Shown piece after piece: positions 397 through 22,331 of a stretch of DNA of 23,008 nt. How positions within the stretch are numbered: position 1 is the first letter of the stretch; each line of letters opens with the position of its first letter. Position numbers and translations under genes: made by a program. The stretch comes from a virus. The notes below the pieces were generated by a model. The model was not told the origin of the DNA and ran no database searches. It saw only the letters and a program-made list of their open reading frames with translations. Location: positions 1 through 23,008 of IMG/VR virus record IMGVR_UViG_3300015261_000018, one strand, 5' to 3'.

Positions 397-2367
397 TTAG
401 TTAACTTTAGTTACGGAGTATTGAACCCAACCACTTTCGGCTTTTTCATAAATTAATCCTCCTCCTGATATTCCGGTGCAATGAACTCTAAAACCAATTC
501 CTGCATTTGGATAACTTGTATTTAAGTAACTTAGTGATAATGGTACAGTATTGGGATTATTAGTCGCAATATCACTAGTTAAAGCAATTGTACCATTTTT
601 GTCAGGAAGCTGATAATTTCGATCTGCAGTTAAGGTATTGGTTCTAATTTTAGCTGAAGCAGAATAAGAAGCTTGAATATAGATAGCAGCTTCAGAGGGA
701 ATTAATTGTATTTGTTTGTCTTCATATGAAGCACCTACGTAATCGTTACTTAATGAAGCACCAAACTGTTTTCCATTTTTTATTCCAGAAATTATTACAC
801 CTGTAGGATAAAAACTTAATGTTGAGTTGTAACCAGCAAAACCCTCACGAAATTCTATCTTGTTTCCATATTGATCGGTGTATTTTGTTCCATTTTCAAC
901 AATTTTTTGTAGATTTATTTGGTCTTCTGTAGCCAATTTATAATCACCTGCCGAATTTTTTGAAGGAATAAGTATGTTTACATTAGAAGATGAGTGAGCT
1001 GTATCAAACTTCAAGGTATTATATCCAAAGCCGGTTTGTTTATTTCTTAGAGAAAAAACACCATTATCGATAGAAAATGTAGTTACATCGCTGCCTTTCG
1101 CACCAGATAAAACTACTTTTGATGTGTCATTCTTTGCATACAAAAGAATATCTGTTTCACAAGTTCCATCTTCTAAGAAAGCTTCACCATTATTTTTTAA
1201 AATATCTTCTAAACCTTGACTTCCTATGCCGGATACTGAAATATTTCCTGTTTTGTCTGCACCTATGCCATTGACTGTCAAAGGAAGGAAATGGTCTCCG
1301 TTATTTTGAGGAAGAGTGACCTTTGTGTCAAAAGATTCAGTTAAAGAATTGTCCTGAGCATGGTTAAAAGAAAACGTATTTGCATGACCTGTTCCGTCAG
1401 CTCCAGCTCTATTTCTAAAAGATAAGCTGTTAACTCTCAAAATGTTTGAAAAATCATTATTCATTCCGTCAATAATGCTTATTTCGTGTGGTGATATAGA
1501 AGAAGTTGCTACTAAATCTGGCGCATGCGTCTGATCCTGTGTCTGGATTAGCATAGGGCCAATTGCTGATGCTCCTATCTGACCAGCTCCGCCTTCTGGA
1601 GAGTATCGCCAGACAGTGGCCTTATCAGTAGCTGTAAATCCTGCACCTAAAATTTGGTCAAACGTAGGTGTTGATCCTCCAGTGGAAATTTCTACATTAC
1701 CATTTGCATCAGCCTTCGCACCATTAACTGAGGTAACCAGGGTTCTAGGCTCTATGTCTAAATCTGATAAAGGAAAATAGTAAGTATCTGAATTTACCTC
1801 TAAAGGATTCTGCATAAGTTGTGCTCCTGCACCACCATCTTTTCCCAAAATTAAAACGCTATACTTCTTATTATCTGAATCAATCGTTGTGACTAGACTG
1901 GCTATACTTTGCCATGATTCCCATTCTGAAACCCAGTGTGATAGATTAATCCCATTTTGATAAATAGTAGTCTCTTCATTATTTACGTTACCTGCCCCTT
2001 TAAATTTTACAGATATAGCCGAAGGTTCAATAATTGCTTCGTTATTGTATTCAGGAAATCCTCCTGTTTTTATAATTATCTTAGGCGGAGAGTCACTTTC
2101 TGGTGTTGATTCTAGTTCAAACCCAAGATCAGACTTGTTTCCGTTAGTTAGGATAGTTTGTAAATCCTTAGAATCTCCTGGTGTCTCAAACTCGCTTCTT
2201 GACACAAATTTTATTGTCTTATCAGTGCCTCGTACAAGTACATCGTCTTCATTACTGCCTTCATTTACGGTTTCTAACTTTAGCGGTTTATTAATTATTT
2301 GATTTTTAGGTTTTGCGACTTGTTTAGACTCTTTTTCGAGAGTTTTATTACTATTGTTTTTTGTCAT
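397..2367 (-). CDS. Tail fibre / receptor-binding protein (656 aa)
   Basis: This is a long beta-rich, Gly/Asn/Thr-rich protein at the 3' end of the baseplate operon. Its N-terminus carries the module IINKPLKLETVNEG..DDVLVRGTDKTIKFV (about residues 24-57), closely matching the N-terminus of the fibre at 21162-22331; this is probably the particle-attachment part. Two fibre-type repeats follow (TSVNGAKADANGNVEIS and LTVNGIGADKTGNISVSG, about residues 210-230 and 363-380). Near the C-terminus is the 'NYQLPDKNGTIALTSDI' segment common at the ends of Bacteroidetes fibres. No enzymatic motif was seen. The likely role is host-range determination on the tail. The gene lies 74 bp downstream of the holin gene and is the last gene before the host flank. 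The exact receptor cannot be inferred. Confidence 0.75.
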   Translation of the reverse strand: MTKNNSNKTLEKESKQVAKPKNQIINKPLKLETVNEGSNEDDVLVRGTDKTIKFVSRSEFETPGDSKDLQTILTNGNKSDLGFELESTPESDSPPKIIIKTGGFPEYNNEAIIEPSAISVKFKGAGNVNNEETTIYQNGINLSHWVSEWESWQSIASLVTTIDSDNKKYSVLILGKDGGAGAQLMQNPLEVNSDTYYFPLSDLDIEPRTLVTSVNGAKADANGNVEISTGGSTPTFDQILGAGFTATDKATVWRYSPEGGAGQIGASAIGPMLIQTQDQTHAPDLVATSSISPHEISIIDGMNNDFSNILRVNSLSFRNRAGADGTGHANTFSFNHAQDNSLTESFDTKVTLPQNNGDHFLPLTVNGIGADKTGNISVSGIGSQGLEDILKNNGEAFLEDGTCETDILLYAKNDTSKVVLSGAKGSDVTTFSIDNGVFSLRNKQTGFGYNTLKFDTAHSSSNVNILIPSKNSAGDYKLATEDQINLQKIVENGTKYTDQYGNKIEFREGFAGYNSTLSFYPTGVIISGIKNGKQFGASLSNDYVGASYEDKQIQLIPSEAAIYIQASYSASAKIRTNTLTADRNYQLPDKNGTIALTSDIATNNPNTVPLSLSYLNTSYPNAGIGFRVHCTGISGGGLIYEKAESGWVQYSVTKVN

Positions 2368-3266: not shown

Positions 3267-5756
3267 TTATGGATTTGTTGGCGGATCTAATGGTTTATTG
3301 TTATGAGCGACAATTCCTGAAATAACATAATTATCTACAGTTTCTACATCTAAAAGCGCTACTTCTAAAGGTTCTTCTTTGAAAATGATTGATTCGATAA
3401 CTTTTGTTTTTCCGGTTTTATCTATTAATAACATGCTTTGCACGATATCTTTTATACATACCCATTTCAGGTTTTCACCATCTTCAGTAACTAGTAAAGG
3501 ATGTTGGCCAGTAGCCTTTATCGTAGCATCTTCTGTCTTAATTTCATAATAATCTGGTTGGATGCTTGTTATTTTGTTAACTACTGTAACTTCTGCTCTA
3601 GAAGCTTCACTTAATAATCCATTCCACAACATATAATCTCCCTCAGATTCATCAATTTCGTTAGGAAAAGTCAATCCTTGCAGTTTGTCTCCAACTATAA
3701 CATTTTTCAATTTTTTAGATTGGCCTGATGCCATTGTTACTAAAGATTCAACATCGAAACAAGAAGTAGTTTCTGTTGTTTCTGAAGCGTAATCAGACAT
3801 ATCTGATCGATTGTTAGCAGCATCTTTGGCGATTATATAATAAGTATATGTGGTATTGTATAATAAACCAGTGTCACTATAATAATTATTAGTAACTGAA
3901 GTAGGGAGTTTGTTAAAAGTTCCATTATTTACTCTCCTCCATATTTCATAATAAATAGTAGATCCACCATTATTAGTAGAGCTATCCCACTGAACCATTA
4001 TTTCATTTCTGTCCTGTAAATAACATGTTACGTTTTGAGGTATAGTTGGTGCAACTATTACTGATGTAGTGATGCTTACTGTATTGCTTTGCGCTGATGT
4101 ATTTCCTGCATCATCTTTTGCTACGACATAAAAGGTATATTGTGTCCCAGGATTTAATCCATAAATAGTTCGAGTAAAGACATTACCTACTGAAATTGGC
4201 GAATTAGCATTTCCGTATACGATATAATCAGTAACGCCATATTCATCACTTGATGCTGTCCAGTTTAAAGTTACCTCTGTAGAACCTATAGTGGACACAC
4301 TTAGAGTTGGTGGTGTTGGCGGTGTTTTATCACTTGGACGCCCTGTGTATTCAATAAACTGAACGACTCTATATGGACTCATAAGAGGAAAAGCTTTTCC
4401 TATACCAGCTTCTTTTGTAGTAAATGTAGTTCCTGTGGTACTATTTTTTACAAAGTCACTACCACCATCAGCATTAGCTCCACCTGTTCCAAGGCCTAAT
4501 CCGTGGCTATGTTTAGGCATTTCATCAACATTCAGATTTTTTGCGACATGGCCACCTTCATCTCCTAGTGTTTCAAAAGGCCATATTAAATCACCATTTT
4601 CGTTATAGTAAAAAGTTAAATTTTGATAATAATTTTTTTGACCAATTTGAACAGTTCGTATTTCTGGAGATGGATTAAATAAACCAACAGGCATTTTTCC
4701 TGAAAGAGGCACATATTCTTCCCAGCCTTCAGGAAATGGCGCTGGTTTTCCCCAAATTGCCACCATTCCGATTGGCACTGCGGTAGATTTTTGATCTTCA
4801 AGTTTAGTGATTCTATCAAGCAATGAACTTAATAAGTTATTACTTTTAATAACTTGATTAGCTGTATCTAGTACTAATAAGGAATTCTCAGTACTATCAG
4901 GAGCCTTGTAATTTTCTGTGATTGCTTTTAAATTATCTAAATATAGTTTTCCGCCAATAGAAGTATTTTGCCAGTCTGACTCATAATTTAAATTCAGAGT
5001 AGTGGAAGCCGATGTATTATCATCTACTAAAGCTCTTCCTAAATAATCTCCAGAATAAAATCTTCCTCTTCCATCACTTGAACCAAACCTGAAATCCCTT
5101 GCTCTCACATTTGCTTGCGAGTTTTGTTTGGTGTCTAATTTTGATAAGTGATAAAGGCCCAAATTCAAATCTCCTTCCATCGCTTTTGAACCATTGATTG
5201 GAAGATAAGATTGATTGATAAGATTGATGTCTGATTTAATGTTATTTACATCTCCTTCAATTGCATCAATATTAGATTGAATAGATTTTAAAATTTCATC
5301 AATTGTTTTAATATCAGTAATCGTTTCAAAATTTCCTAAATCATAATATCTGATGGTTTGCACTTCGCCATTTTCAGAAACAATAATAGTATCATCATAT
5401 TTGTTGGAACTATATTCTGCCTCATAATCATAATAAGCTGTTTGAGATTCTCCAGTTCCATAGACTAAACTTGTTTCGGTACAGATACTTTTTAAGTAAC
5501 TCATTTGAGTGCCAATTGCAATAGGATATAAGATTCCGACCGTATTTTCTGGTTTTACAGGATCTTGCTGGTGAATAACTGCCCAACCTTTTGCTTGGTC
5601 TGTTGCATGAGCAATTATGCAATTCTGACCGGGATTAATACTTAAATGTCTTTTTAAAGCATCATACAGCTCTGATCTATAAGCTGCTTGAAGTCTTTCT
5701 AAAGTTTCCTGCTCAAGCGGAAATCCACCAGGATTACTAAAATTTATTTGTTTCAT
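3267..5756 (-). CDS. Collar-domain tail fibre with two FN3 domains and a C-terminal Hint (intein-like) domain (829 aa)
   Basis: Visible architecture: a unique N-terminal head (1-140), a coiled or helical segment (145-182), a stalk-like part (185-325), a phage tail-collar domain (about 326-470, with VPIGMVAIWGKPAPFPEGW and MPKHSHG), FN3 domain 1 (478-565, ending in YTFYVVAKDDAGNTS), FN3 domain 2 (570-662), and a Hint domain from Cys666 to Asn819. The Hint part shows an N-terminal Cys (TTS|CFDVESLVTM), a block-B TxxH (TGQH, Thr749 and His752) and a terminal His818-Asn819 (VISGIVAHN). Ten residues rich in Pro and Asn follow. The residue after Asn819 is Asn, not Cys/Ser/Thr, which suggests self-cleavage (type-A BIL) rather than protein splicing. 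The gene lies 35 bp downstream of the gpI-like gene, the classical fibre position. The particle role is inferred from context. Confidence 0.82.
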   Translation of the reverse strand: MKQINFSNPGGFPLEQETLERLQAAYRSELYDALKRHLSINPGQNCIIAHATDQAKGWAVIHQQDPVKPENTVGILYPIAIGTQMSYLKSICTETSLVYGTGESQTAYYDYEAEYSSNKYDDTIIVSENGEVQTIRYYDLGNFETITDIKTIDEILKSIQSNIDAIEGDVNNIKSDINLINQSYLPINGSKAMEGDLNLGLYHLSKLDTKQNSQANVRARDFRFGSSDGRGRFYSGDYLGRALVDDNTSASTTLNLNYESDWQNTSIGGKLYLDNLKAITENYKAPDSTENSLLVLDTANQVIKSNNLLSSLLDRITKLEDQKSTAVPIGMVAIWGKPAPFPEGWEEYVPLSGKMPVGLFNPSPEIRTVQIGQKNYYQNLTFYYNENGDLIWPFETLGDEGGHVAKNLNVDEMPKHSHGLGLGTGGANADGGSDFVKNSTTGTTFTTKEAGIGKAFPLMSPYRVVQFIEYTGRPSDKTPPTPPTLSVSTIGSTEVTLNWTASSDEYGVTDYIVYGNANSPISVGNVFTRTIYGLNPGTQYTFYVVAKDDAGNTSAQSNTVSITTSVIVAPTIPQNVTCYLQDRNEIMVQWDSSTNNGGSTIYYEIWRRVNNGTFNKLPTSVTNNYYSDTGLLYNTTYTYYIIAKDAANNRSDMSDYASETTETTSCFDVESLVTMASGQSKKLKNVIVGDKLQGLTFPNEIDESEGDYMLWNGLLSEASRAEVTVVNKITSIQPDYYEIKTEDATIKATGQHPLLVTEDGENLKWVCIKDIVQSMLLIDKTGKTKVIESIIFKEEPLEVALLDVETVDNYVISGIVAHNNKPLDPPTNP
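3300..3761 (-). other. Hint / bacterial intein-like domain coding segment of the collar fibre
   Basis: This segment encodes residues 666-819 of the fibre. The Cys codon is at 3761-3759 and the terminal Asn codon at 3302-3300. At 154 residues it is the size of a minimal Hint module, with no room for a homing endonuclease. The N-terminal Cys, TxxH and HN motifs are all present, so autoprocessing appears chemically possible. Confidence 0.78.
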
Positions 5757-20269: not shown

Positions 20270-21088
20270 TTAATGTTTGGTTTTTATTCTCATTAAGGTT
20301 TCCCATTTTCCAAACCAATTGCTTTGTAAATCAGTTTCTCTATAAGTGCCATTATCGCTGTATTCTACTAATTTGTAAGATGATTCGAAGGCATCAAATT
20401 GATTTGTTAAACTACCTCCTAAATATAATCTTGGCCTTAAAATAGCAGGTGATTCCCCTGCAGTAACATTCATGGTGAGTTGAAATAATAAAGATGGATT
20501 TTCAGATAATATACTATTTACAGTATTTGAATTCATTATCATAAATTCAGCCAATTTCAAACCGCTTTCTCTACGAGCAACTGAATTGTATGGAGAGGGT
20601 AGTGCGCCTTGAAAAATTGGATCTAAGTAACTATAATCTGGTGTAAGATATCGGACTGTATTTTCAATTATACCATTTCGATTCTCAATATTGTTATAAA
20701 ATAGATTAGTGCCATTATAACTATTTATATCCGATAAGGTTATATTTTCTATAATTGCTTCTGTAAGTGGTTTGAAACTGCTTATCAAATTCGTATCTCC
20801 ACCATAATAAGTTGCTTCTGCCAGGAAATTTCCTTCGCAATAACCAATTACACTGTCGCCAATTTCTAATTTATCTGTTGTATTGGGGTCAACTTTAAAA
20901 ATTAGAAATTCTCCCGATGGAATAATCTTTTGGCTATTTTTTAGTTGGTCAATATCCTCAATATCTTCTTCAGGAATTTTGTCATATTTATGCCGAAAAG
21001 AATCCCAAGTATCCCAAAACTGAGTTTGCGTTGGTTTTAAACCCGTTCTAAACCAGTTTTTGATTGTTTTTAATGCTTGTATTGCCAT
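20270..21088 (-). CDS. Tail fibre adaptor-like protein with conserved N-terminal module (272 aa)
   Basis: MAIQALKTIKNWFRTGLKPTQTQFWDTWDSFRHKYDKIPEEDIEDI is a common N-terminus of Bacteroidetes tail-associated proteins. The following part (IIPSGEFLIFKVDP..., GDSVIGYCEGNFLAEATYYGG, to about residue 107) is nearly the same in the partial gene at the right edge. The C-terminal 165 residues are unique and beta-rich (YSYLDPIFQGALPSP..., RPRLYLGGSLTNQF). A constant head with a variable end suits a receptor-binding or fibre-adaptor protein. It is the last gene before a terminator and 73 bp behind the fibre gene. Confidence 0.62.
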   Translation of the reverse strand: MAIQALKTIKNWFRTGLKPTQTQFWDTWDSFRHKYDKIPEEDIEDIDQLKNSQKIIPSGEFLIFKVDPNTTDKLEIGDSVIGYCEGNFLAEATYYGGDTNLISSFKPLTEAIIENITLSDINSYNGTNLFYNNIENRNGIIENTVRYLTPDYSYLDPIFQGALPSPYNSVARRESGLKLAEFMIMNSNTVNSILSENPSLLFQLTMNVTAGESPAILRPRLYLGGSLTNQFDAFESSYKLVEYSDNGTYRETDLQSNWFGKWETLMRIKTKH

Positions 21089-21161: not shown

Positions 21162-22331
21162 CTAATATTTTATCATTAACAATCCAGTTGGTGTGCGATA
21201 GACATCGCCCGCTACCAGTGCTCCTGCTGTAGCTGCAGCATTATCAGCATAAACGGGAACATTTGATATGTTTAGTTTATTTTGCAATACTGTTTTACCT
21301 GAAGAATCAATTACGATTCTTTTATTTTGCTGTCCATCAGCTATAATAACCGTATTGTTCATTACTCCTTGATTTGGGTTAAGATTACCAATAACCACAT
21401 TGTAACTACTGCTTGTTCTAAATGGACTTGCAGCCATACCGACAAAAATATTACCATTTCCTGTGGTTAATCCTCTGGCAGAATTAGTCCCTAAAATTAA
21501 ATTTCCTGTGCCTGTTGTTAGCTCTATGCCAGCGCTTGAGCCAAATGCGGTATTATTTCCAGTTAAAGAAGAAGATAGCGCTCCTTGCCCAAAAACAGTA
21601 TTGTCTCCAGTTCCATCCCATGAAGCCAAGGCACTTGCTCCGAAAACGGTATTGTAAAAAGCATTTCTAGCTGAAGAGAAAGCATTCCAGCCATATACTG
21701 TATTATGTTTGGCATAATCCTGGTCTGAACCAAGTTTAAAAGCGTCTTTGCCAAAAATAGTGTTAGTGAAGGCGAATGTACCTCCATGAGCAGTTACATA
21801 ATTATCATTAATAATTAAATTTGATAAGTATGGTCGTACACCGTTTGCTTTTGTTATTTGTTTATAGGAAGATCCATCCCATAAGAAGAATTTGCTTCCA
21901 AAGGCAGTAGTAATGTACATTACAGAAGGATCTCCTGTGGCTGGTAAATCTTCAGGATAATTTAAAGTTATAATGTCTTTAAAATAAGCAGGTTTGTTTA
22001 AAATTTGTTCGGCACCACTTGTAGCATTCCAGTCAGCATTTGCTTGAGTGCTTTCATTCTCGATAACTAAATTGCCTGATCCTAGTATTGATGAACCATT
22101 AATTGTTTTAATGTTAATCCCTGAATCAAGATTTTCTTGCTTATTGTTTATCTGACTTTGTAAATCAGGAAATAAATTGTTTATATATTTTACTTCATTA
22201 TCAAAGCCACGAACTAAAATTCCATCTGTTGGTTCGCCTTTATTAACTGTATTTATTTTTAAAGGTTTATTAACTATTTGAGTCCCTGTTAATGATCCTT
22301 CATCTTTTTTTAGTGTTGTGTTTTCTTTCAT
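21162..22331 (-). CDS. Tail fibre with 'NTxFG..A' beta-helix repeats (389 aa)
   Basis: Residues 14-52 (LTGTQIVNKPLKINTVN..TDGILVRGFDNEVKYI) match the N-terminal attachment module of the fibre at 397-2367. Residues about 189-316 are a series of short repeats (NTIFGKDAF, NTVYGWNAF, NTVFGASAL, NTVFGQGAL, NTAFGSSAG, NLILGTNSA, NIFVGMAAS, NVVIGN), the pattern of YadA-head/trimeric left-handed beta-roll stalks. The C-terminus PVYADNAAATAGALVAGDVYRTPTGLLMIKY is typical of Bacteroidetes fibre ends. A trimeric receptor-binding fibre is the likely product. Confidence 0.75.
   Translation of the reverse strand: MKENTTLKKDEGSLTGTQIVNKPLKINTVNKGEPTDGILVRGFDNEVKYINNLFPDLQSQINNKQENLDSGINIKTINGSSILGSGNLVIENESTQANADWNATSGAEQILNKPAYFKDIITLNYPEDLPATGDPSVMYITTAFGSKFFLWDGSSYKQITKANGVRPYLSNLIINDNYVTAHGGTFAFTNTIFGKDAFKLGSDQDYAKHNTVYGWNAFSSARNAFYNTVFGASALASWDGTGDNTVFGQGALSSSLTGNNTAFGSSAGIELTTGTGNLILGTNSARGLTTGNGNIFVGMAASPFRTSSSYNVVIGNLNPNQGVMNNTVIIADGQQNKRIVIDSSGKTVLQNKLNISNVPVYADNAAATAGALVAGDVYRTPTGLLMIKY

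Follow-up and report, generated by a model that had tools for sequence, protein, structure and literature searches.

The DNA analysed here (the window, a single IMG/VR record of 23,008 bases) encodes a tail fibre that ends in a Hint domain, which raises the question of what protein-splicing chemistry might do at the tip of a contractile particle. The fibre gene occupies positions 3267–5756 of the minus strand, with its ATG at 5756 and its stop ending at 3267, and specifies 829 amino acids; the original prediction had named no strand. All parts of the fibre described below lie on this minus strand, and relatives across the whole length of the protein are present in IMG/VR. The N-terminal part (residues 1–322; 4791–5756) is common to fibres with and without the Hint domain, as seen in alignment A2 and in the tree. 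It is followed by a collar-like region (residues 323–472, GMVAIWGKPAPFPEGWEEYVPL ... FIEYTG; 4341–4790) that diverges strongly among relatives. This region had been called a collar domain, a name that is less secure than the other assignments: the Pfam search found no collar family in the window protein, PHROG tail and tail-fibre matches over residues 394–479 are weak, and a Gp10_C match in homologue L010 is sub-threshold. The two FN3 domains that had been foreseen were recovered: Pfam fn3 matches the fibre at 8e-15 in two stretches, and the fibre model matches tandem FN3 structures in Foldseek. The first domain spans residues 482–561 (4074–4313) and the second approximately residues 573–646 (3819–4040), where the fn3 stretch overlaps a match to Pur_ac_phosph_N. 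Further fibre-like genes in the window (397–2367, 20270–21088 and 21162–22331) have the N-terminal motifs NKPLKLNTVNEG.. and MAIQ.LKTIKNWFRTGLKPTQ in common, and their copy number varies among relatives.

The Hint domain comprises residues 666–819 (3300–3761), and Pfam, alignment, profile and fold-model evidence points to an A-type BIL-like module. Cys666 (3759–3761), preceded by Ser665, is the predicted nucleophile of an N–S acyl shift and is invariant in alignment A4. The Thr and His of block B (T749-x-x-H752; 3501–3512) and Asp803 of block F (LLDVE; 3348–3350) are likewise invariant, as is His818-Asn819 (3300–3305), at which cleavage on the C-side is predicted to proceed through Asn cyclisation. 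Only the ten residues of the C-tail remain after this pair (NKPLDPPTNP, residues 820–829; 3270–3299), with Asn820 at the +1 position and Lys821 at +2. Cys666, the TxxH motif, His818-Asn819, Asn820 at +1 and the ten remaining residues agree exactly with the original prediction, which was also right about the residues for cleavage at both ends, the non-nucleophilic +1 residue and the very short C-flank.

Detection of the domain depended on profiles and fold. A PDB search with the single Hint sequence returned a DnaE intein as its sole match (E 0.28). With the full-length protein, three Hint-type Pfam families match below their curated cut-offs; with the isolated domain, Intein_splicing (3e-8) and PT-HINT (4e-6) match at sub-threshold or borderline level, and both families match 19/19 homologues. 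A sequence search with a profile of the window Hint and its relatives in jumbo phages recovers the Clostridium thermocellum A-type BIL, 2LWY (E 1.8e-9). The same structure is the best PDB match of a fold model of the Hint alone, built from the 21-row alignment A6 (pLDDT 82, pTM 0.74), with E 9e-9 and TM 0.83 on target; second place goes to BIL2 from the BUBL1 locus of Tetrahymena (6Y75, 6TMM), followed by inteins and then the hedgehog autoprocessing domain 1AT0. According to this model, the domain has the HINT fold. In a joint FN3–FN3–Hint model the Hint is poorly modelled and matches are to FN3 only, so that the good model is that of the Hint alone. The nearest predicted viral structures come from phage NCTB, where they are tail proteins, and from uncultured Caudovirales, where they are named ‘Fibronectin type III’ proteins. 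A match of the Hint-alone profile A4 to the phage tail-tip fibre 7z4b (E 0.26) was set aside as chance, the aligned region being devoid of Hint motifs, and LR756508 (H2) was not counted as a relative, the retrieved ORF reading as a portal-like protein with what is probably an ordinary intein.

The Hint domain was found in the genomes of 13 Flavobacterium species. Loss of catalytic residues in close homologues would have spoken against an active domain; in the homologous fibres of Flavobacterium species and IMG/VR every one is kept. In Hint numbering, Cys1, Thr84/His87, Asp138, His153 and Asn154 do not vary among 19 Flavobacterium rows, and Cys1, TxxH, the block-F Asp and His-Asn are also invariant in a distant alignment with aquatic phages. 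Such invariance of the catalytic residues across 19 homologues shows that the Hint assignment is not a product of chance.

The particle that carries the fibre can be read from its gene content. Bases 1–350 of the window belong to the host: they form the 3′ end of a DsbD gene and share 92% identity with the copy in F. tagetis GN10. That genome holds a complete locus of about 29 kb and another Flavobacterium genome a second; both encode sheath, tube, baseplate hub, spike, fibres, holin, an M15/VanY endolysin and a repressor of the S24-peptidase type, and a lysis gene in the complete loci reads as an Rz1-like lipoprotein. An inventory of the loci of two genomes and one 42-kb record found no terminase, portal or capsid. 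Since head and packaging genes were not found and the whole loci in the two genomes consist only of genes for tail, lysis, repressor and effector-like proteins, we read the element (window 1–23008; L057–L059, L060–L062 and L063–L065) as an R-type-tailocin-like contractile particle of Flavobacterium, by the gene content of three loci. Sheath, tube, baseplate and fibre genes without capsid, terminase or portal, accompanied by a lysis cassette and an SOS-type repressor, are the gene content of R-type tailocins, and the particle would presumably kill. The original prediction needs amending here: the carrier is a tailocin-like contractile tail that lacks head genes, and it is not evidently a phage. 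It is filed as a virus in IMG/VR. An array of small lipoprotein-like genes follows a large plus-strand protein of 1381 aa at L062:3922–8067, whose F. tagetis copy has a baseplate-hub-like PHROG match. In one relative, a DUF4280 (PAAR-like) protein has a metalloprotease motif and another protein has an AHH nuclease at its end (L064:4435–6729, L063:14864–17236); small lipoprotein-like genes adjoin the gene of the former, making effector and immunity candidates. These proteins suggest that some relatives also carry effectors.

The closest known counterpart of the window Hint is the A-type BIL, whose hallmark is the lack of a conserved nucleophile at +1 (PMC4031507). With 2LWY the window Hint has in common the HINT fold, Cys1, TxxH, the terminal His-Asn and a non-nucleophilic +1 residue, as well as a short, variable flank and a carrier that is a variable surface-type protein. 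Across relatives, the +1 position is N, S, T, D, L or K, with no conserved C/S/T nucleophile, and the −1 position is Gly or Ser in 19/24. The window Hint differs from A-type BILs in that the carrier is a tail fibre of a contractile particle and the Hint is always the last domain, and in that the insert separating block A from block B (FPNEIDESEGDYMLW) is longer. B-type BILs lack the intein-like C-terminal His-Asn, which the window Hint has.

We consider it fairly probable, judging by its residues and by analogy, that the window Hint is a catalytically intact, A-type BIL-like, exchangeable tip module that processes itself and is removed from the fibre. Speaking for this reading are the fold matches to BIL domains, the invariant catalytic residues, the variable +1 position, the low dN/dS and high identity of the Hint, and the retention of Cys and His-Asn in all 42 aquatic-phage loci, as detailed in this text. 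Thioester formation, Asn cyclisation and both cuts have precedent in A-type BILs (PMC4031507, PMC5874633, PMC7765530). The Hint would fold after the second FN3 domain, and Cys666, assisted by Thr749 and His752, would attack the Ser665–Cys666 bond in an N–S acyl shift that converts the fibre end to a thioester. Asn819, assisted by His818, would cyclise and cut off the 10-residue tail; the thioester would be resolved by water or an amine, leaving a mature fibre that ends at or just after FN3-2. We infer that cleavage occurs, as well as its timing and the agent that would resolve the thioester. Probably, then, the Hint either removes itself or couples the end of the fibre with an amine. The original preference for autoprocessing over ordinary intein splicing is borne out as BIL-like autoprocessing, but the reason given against splicing is weakened: because BIL-type splicing can join flanks without a +1 nucleophile (PMC4031507), the short tail could conceivably be joined to the FN3 end. 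Counting against autoprocessing is that trimming would convert a Hint-bearing fibre into the Hint-less type that exists naturally, as are the one Hint cut by a frameshift (L087), the Pfam scores near or below their cut-offs and the poorly modelled Hint in the joint FN3–FN3–Hint model. Since Hint-less fibres already end where a cleaved fibre would, the mere removal of a conserved Hint would hardly account for its retention; that the Hint acts in folding or assembly prior to its release, or that the fibre end is coupled to an amine, would presumably account for it better.

The second of these explanations, in which a lysine attacks the fibre-end thioester and the fibre becomes locked or anchored through an amide or isopeptide bond, strikes us as rather improbable. 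The attacking lysine could be the fibre’s own Lys821 or belong to an adjacent fibre subunit or another protein of the particle; alternatively, the target surface could supply the amine. For such thioester coupling, an idea already raised in the original prediction, precedent exists in a close structural relative, BIL2 of the BUBL1 locus, the second-best fold match, which forms an isopeptide bond between its N-flank and a lysine of the C-flanking domain (PMC8616854). Both BIL2 and the window Hint have a lysine in the C-flank, but BIL2 is flanked by ubiquitin-like domains and its lysine sits in a folded partner, whereas the window lysine lies in a 10-residue tail, for which conjugation is putative. 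Lysine is at +2 in 16/17 distinct, otherwise variable Flavobacterium tails, and the seventeenth has it at +1. In an FN3 virion protein of aquatic phages (IMG/VR L107–L148), the Cys ... THNK[GE] pattern around the Hint is kept in 42/42 loci, with Lys at +1. Like the window fibre, this protein has Cys1...HN and an FN3 neighbour, and it is among the closest viral fold matches, with BFVD A0A6J5NYB8 a likely member of the family; unlike in the window fibre, its Hint is internal, between an N-terminal domain and FN3. Conjugation would account for the kept His-Asn and short tail, and for retention of the Hint despite the existence of Hint-less fibres. However, Lys is frequent in AT-rich genomes and may merely favour Asn cyclisation or solubility, and the C-tail could simply be released.

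A third explanation, which we regard as distinctly unlikely, is that the uncleaved Hint caps and stabilises the fibre or contacts the receptor and that its catalytic residues are a relic. The tip position is consistent with such a role, and swaps between presence and absence resemble those of receptor-binding modules. In the tree of the fibre N-terminal part, Hint presence takes 8 changes, of which well-supported branches require at least 5, and even close sisters disagree (L006 has the Hint, L012 lacks it). Hint-less fibres that end naturally at FN3, also without the C-tail, make up 15/40 tree rows. A draw of 299 Flavobacterium genomes contained 23 with the fibre, 13 of which have the Hint in an unbroken frame. 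In one of the 23 (L087), a frameshift in an A-run cuts the Hint from L087:3367, just after block A, and the remainder is still open in another frame; this could be a recent loss or a sequencing error. No gene strictly linked to the Hint was found downstream of the fibres, and a 154-aa gene (MKIVKFIF...) adjoins fibres with and without it.

If the Hint contacted the receptor, it should be the most variable part of the fibre. Instead, all its catalytic residues are invariant while the FN3 domains and the collar-like region vary. Hint dN/dS is about 0–0.13 in fibre pairs versus 0.2–0.9 for FN3 and 0.1–0.8 for the collar-like region (the C-tail has too few codons for this comparison), and mean pairwise identity is 0.81 for Hint versus 0.42 for FN3. 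By these measures no other part of the fibre is as constrained as the Hint, the FN3 tip is variable, and strong purifying selection on the Hint argues that the domain is maintained. Repeated gain and loss, constraint and the lack of an empty allele with a joined tail together characterise it, at the level of sequence, as an exchangeable yet maintained tip module, neither in decay nor an intein with an empty allele.

The same catalytic residues are also kept in unrelated carriers, which argues further against an uncleaved cap or binding tip. A Hint domain on a tail fibre had been thought unusual, but related ones occur in phage NCTB, in jumbo phages of Erwinia, Dickeya and Yersinia, and in the aquatic phages. 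Phage NCTB has two tail proteins with a C-terminal Hint (GGGG-Cys ... HN-AVMVAKK and HN-APVDQKH), and collagen-like virion proteins of the jumbo phages end in a Hint (HN-TDIVAKAEKK and similar). As in the window fibre, the Hint ends a fibre-like virion protein and a tail of 6–10 residues follows His-Asn; the poly-Gly linker before Cys in NCTB is a further likeness to the window fibre. The carriers differ, with collagen, Ig and Calx-beta in the NCTB and jumbo-phage proteins versus collar-FN3 in the window, the Hints are about 30% identical, and the Erwinia-type tail (TDIVAKAEKK) is itself conserved, unlike the window-type tails. Phage NCTB (L024 6960–14219) also has a standalone Hint-like ORF without an obvious Cys1 region that ends in VHN-KVD.

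That the domain is what remains of a pretoxin Hint after loss of its toxin domain seems highly unlikely. The window Hint resembles the PT-HINT of polymorphic toxins in its sequence family match, PT-HINT being among the best Pfam matches, and in the predicted autocleavage role; related tailocins carry the effector-like proteins described above, and in a Flavobacteriaceae RHS protein (L150) the terminal Hint has KEID as its tail, directly behind His-Asn, the same short-tail layout. Plasmids yielded distant polymorphic-toxin Hints only. Against this origin, the tails after His-Asn are 7–14 residues long in every relative, with no toxin domain found there among the fibres examined, the Hint is under purifying selection, and no Hint remnant was found downstream of Hint-less fibres. 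A selfish mini-intein is scarcely credible despite the HINT fold and splice-site residues, as the +1 residue is Asn and not the nucleophile of a canonical class 1 intein, Pfam searches found no homing endonuclease in the 154-aa domain, a conserved insertion site is lacking, the tail is missing from Hint-less fibres as well, so that no intein-free allele with joined exteins exists, and the Hint is fixed in the aquatic-phage relatives.

Self-cleavage in the maturation of tail fibres is known for other C-terminal domains, such as intramolecular chaperones. In the limited library searched, no paper dealt with what a Hint does in tail fibres, and none described protein-splicing chemistry on the receptor fibre of a tailocin; papers on phiCbK, CBB and Staphylococcus phages concern ordinary inteins or Hints in other proteins. 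Our favoured reading, self-processing by a tip module, suggests that protein-splicing chemistry may help to finish or anchor a fibre. It is a rather improbable extension that virion and tailocin fibres make up a family in which an inbuilt BIL/Hint turns the fibre end into a thioester and couples it to an amine, be it the conserved tail lysine, a neighbouring subunit or the surface of the target cell; if true, this would be a covalent assembly or anchoring step, of which none is described for contractile particles in the papers searched. If the Hint acts, it would equip contractile killing particles with a self-contained step of processing or conjugation, would give a biological context to BIL domains, whose roles are poorly understood, and might perhaps offer a natural tool for making thioester-ended fibres.
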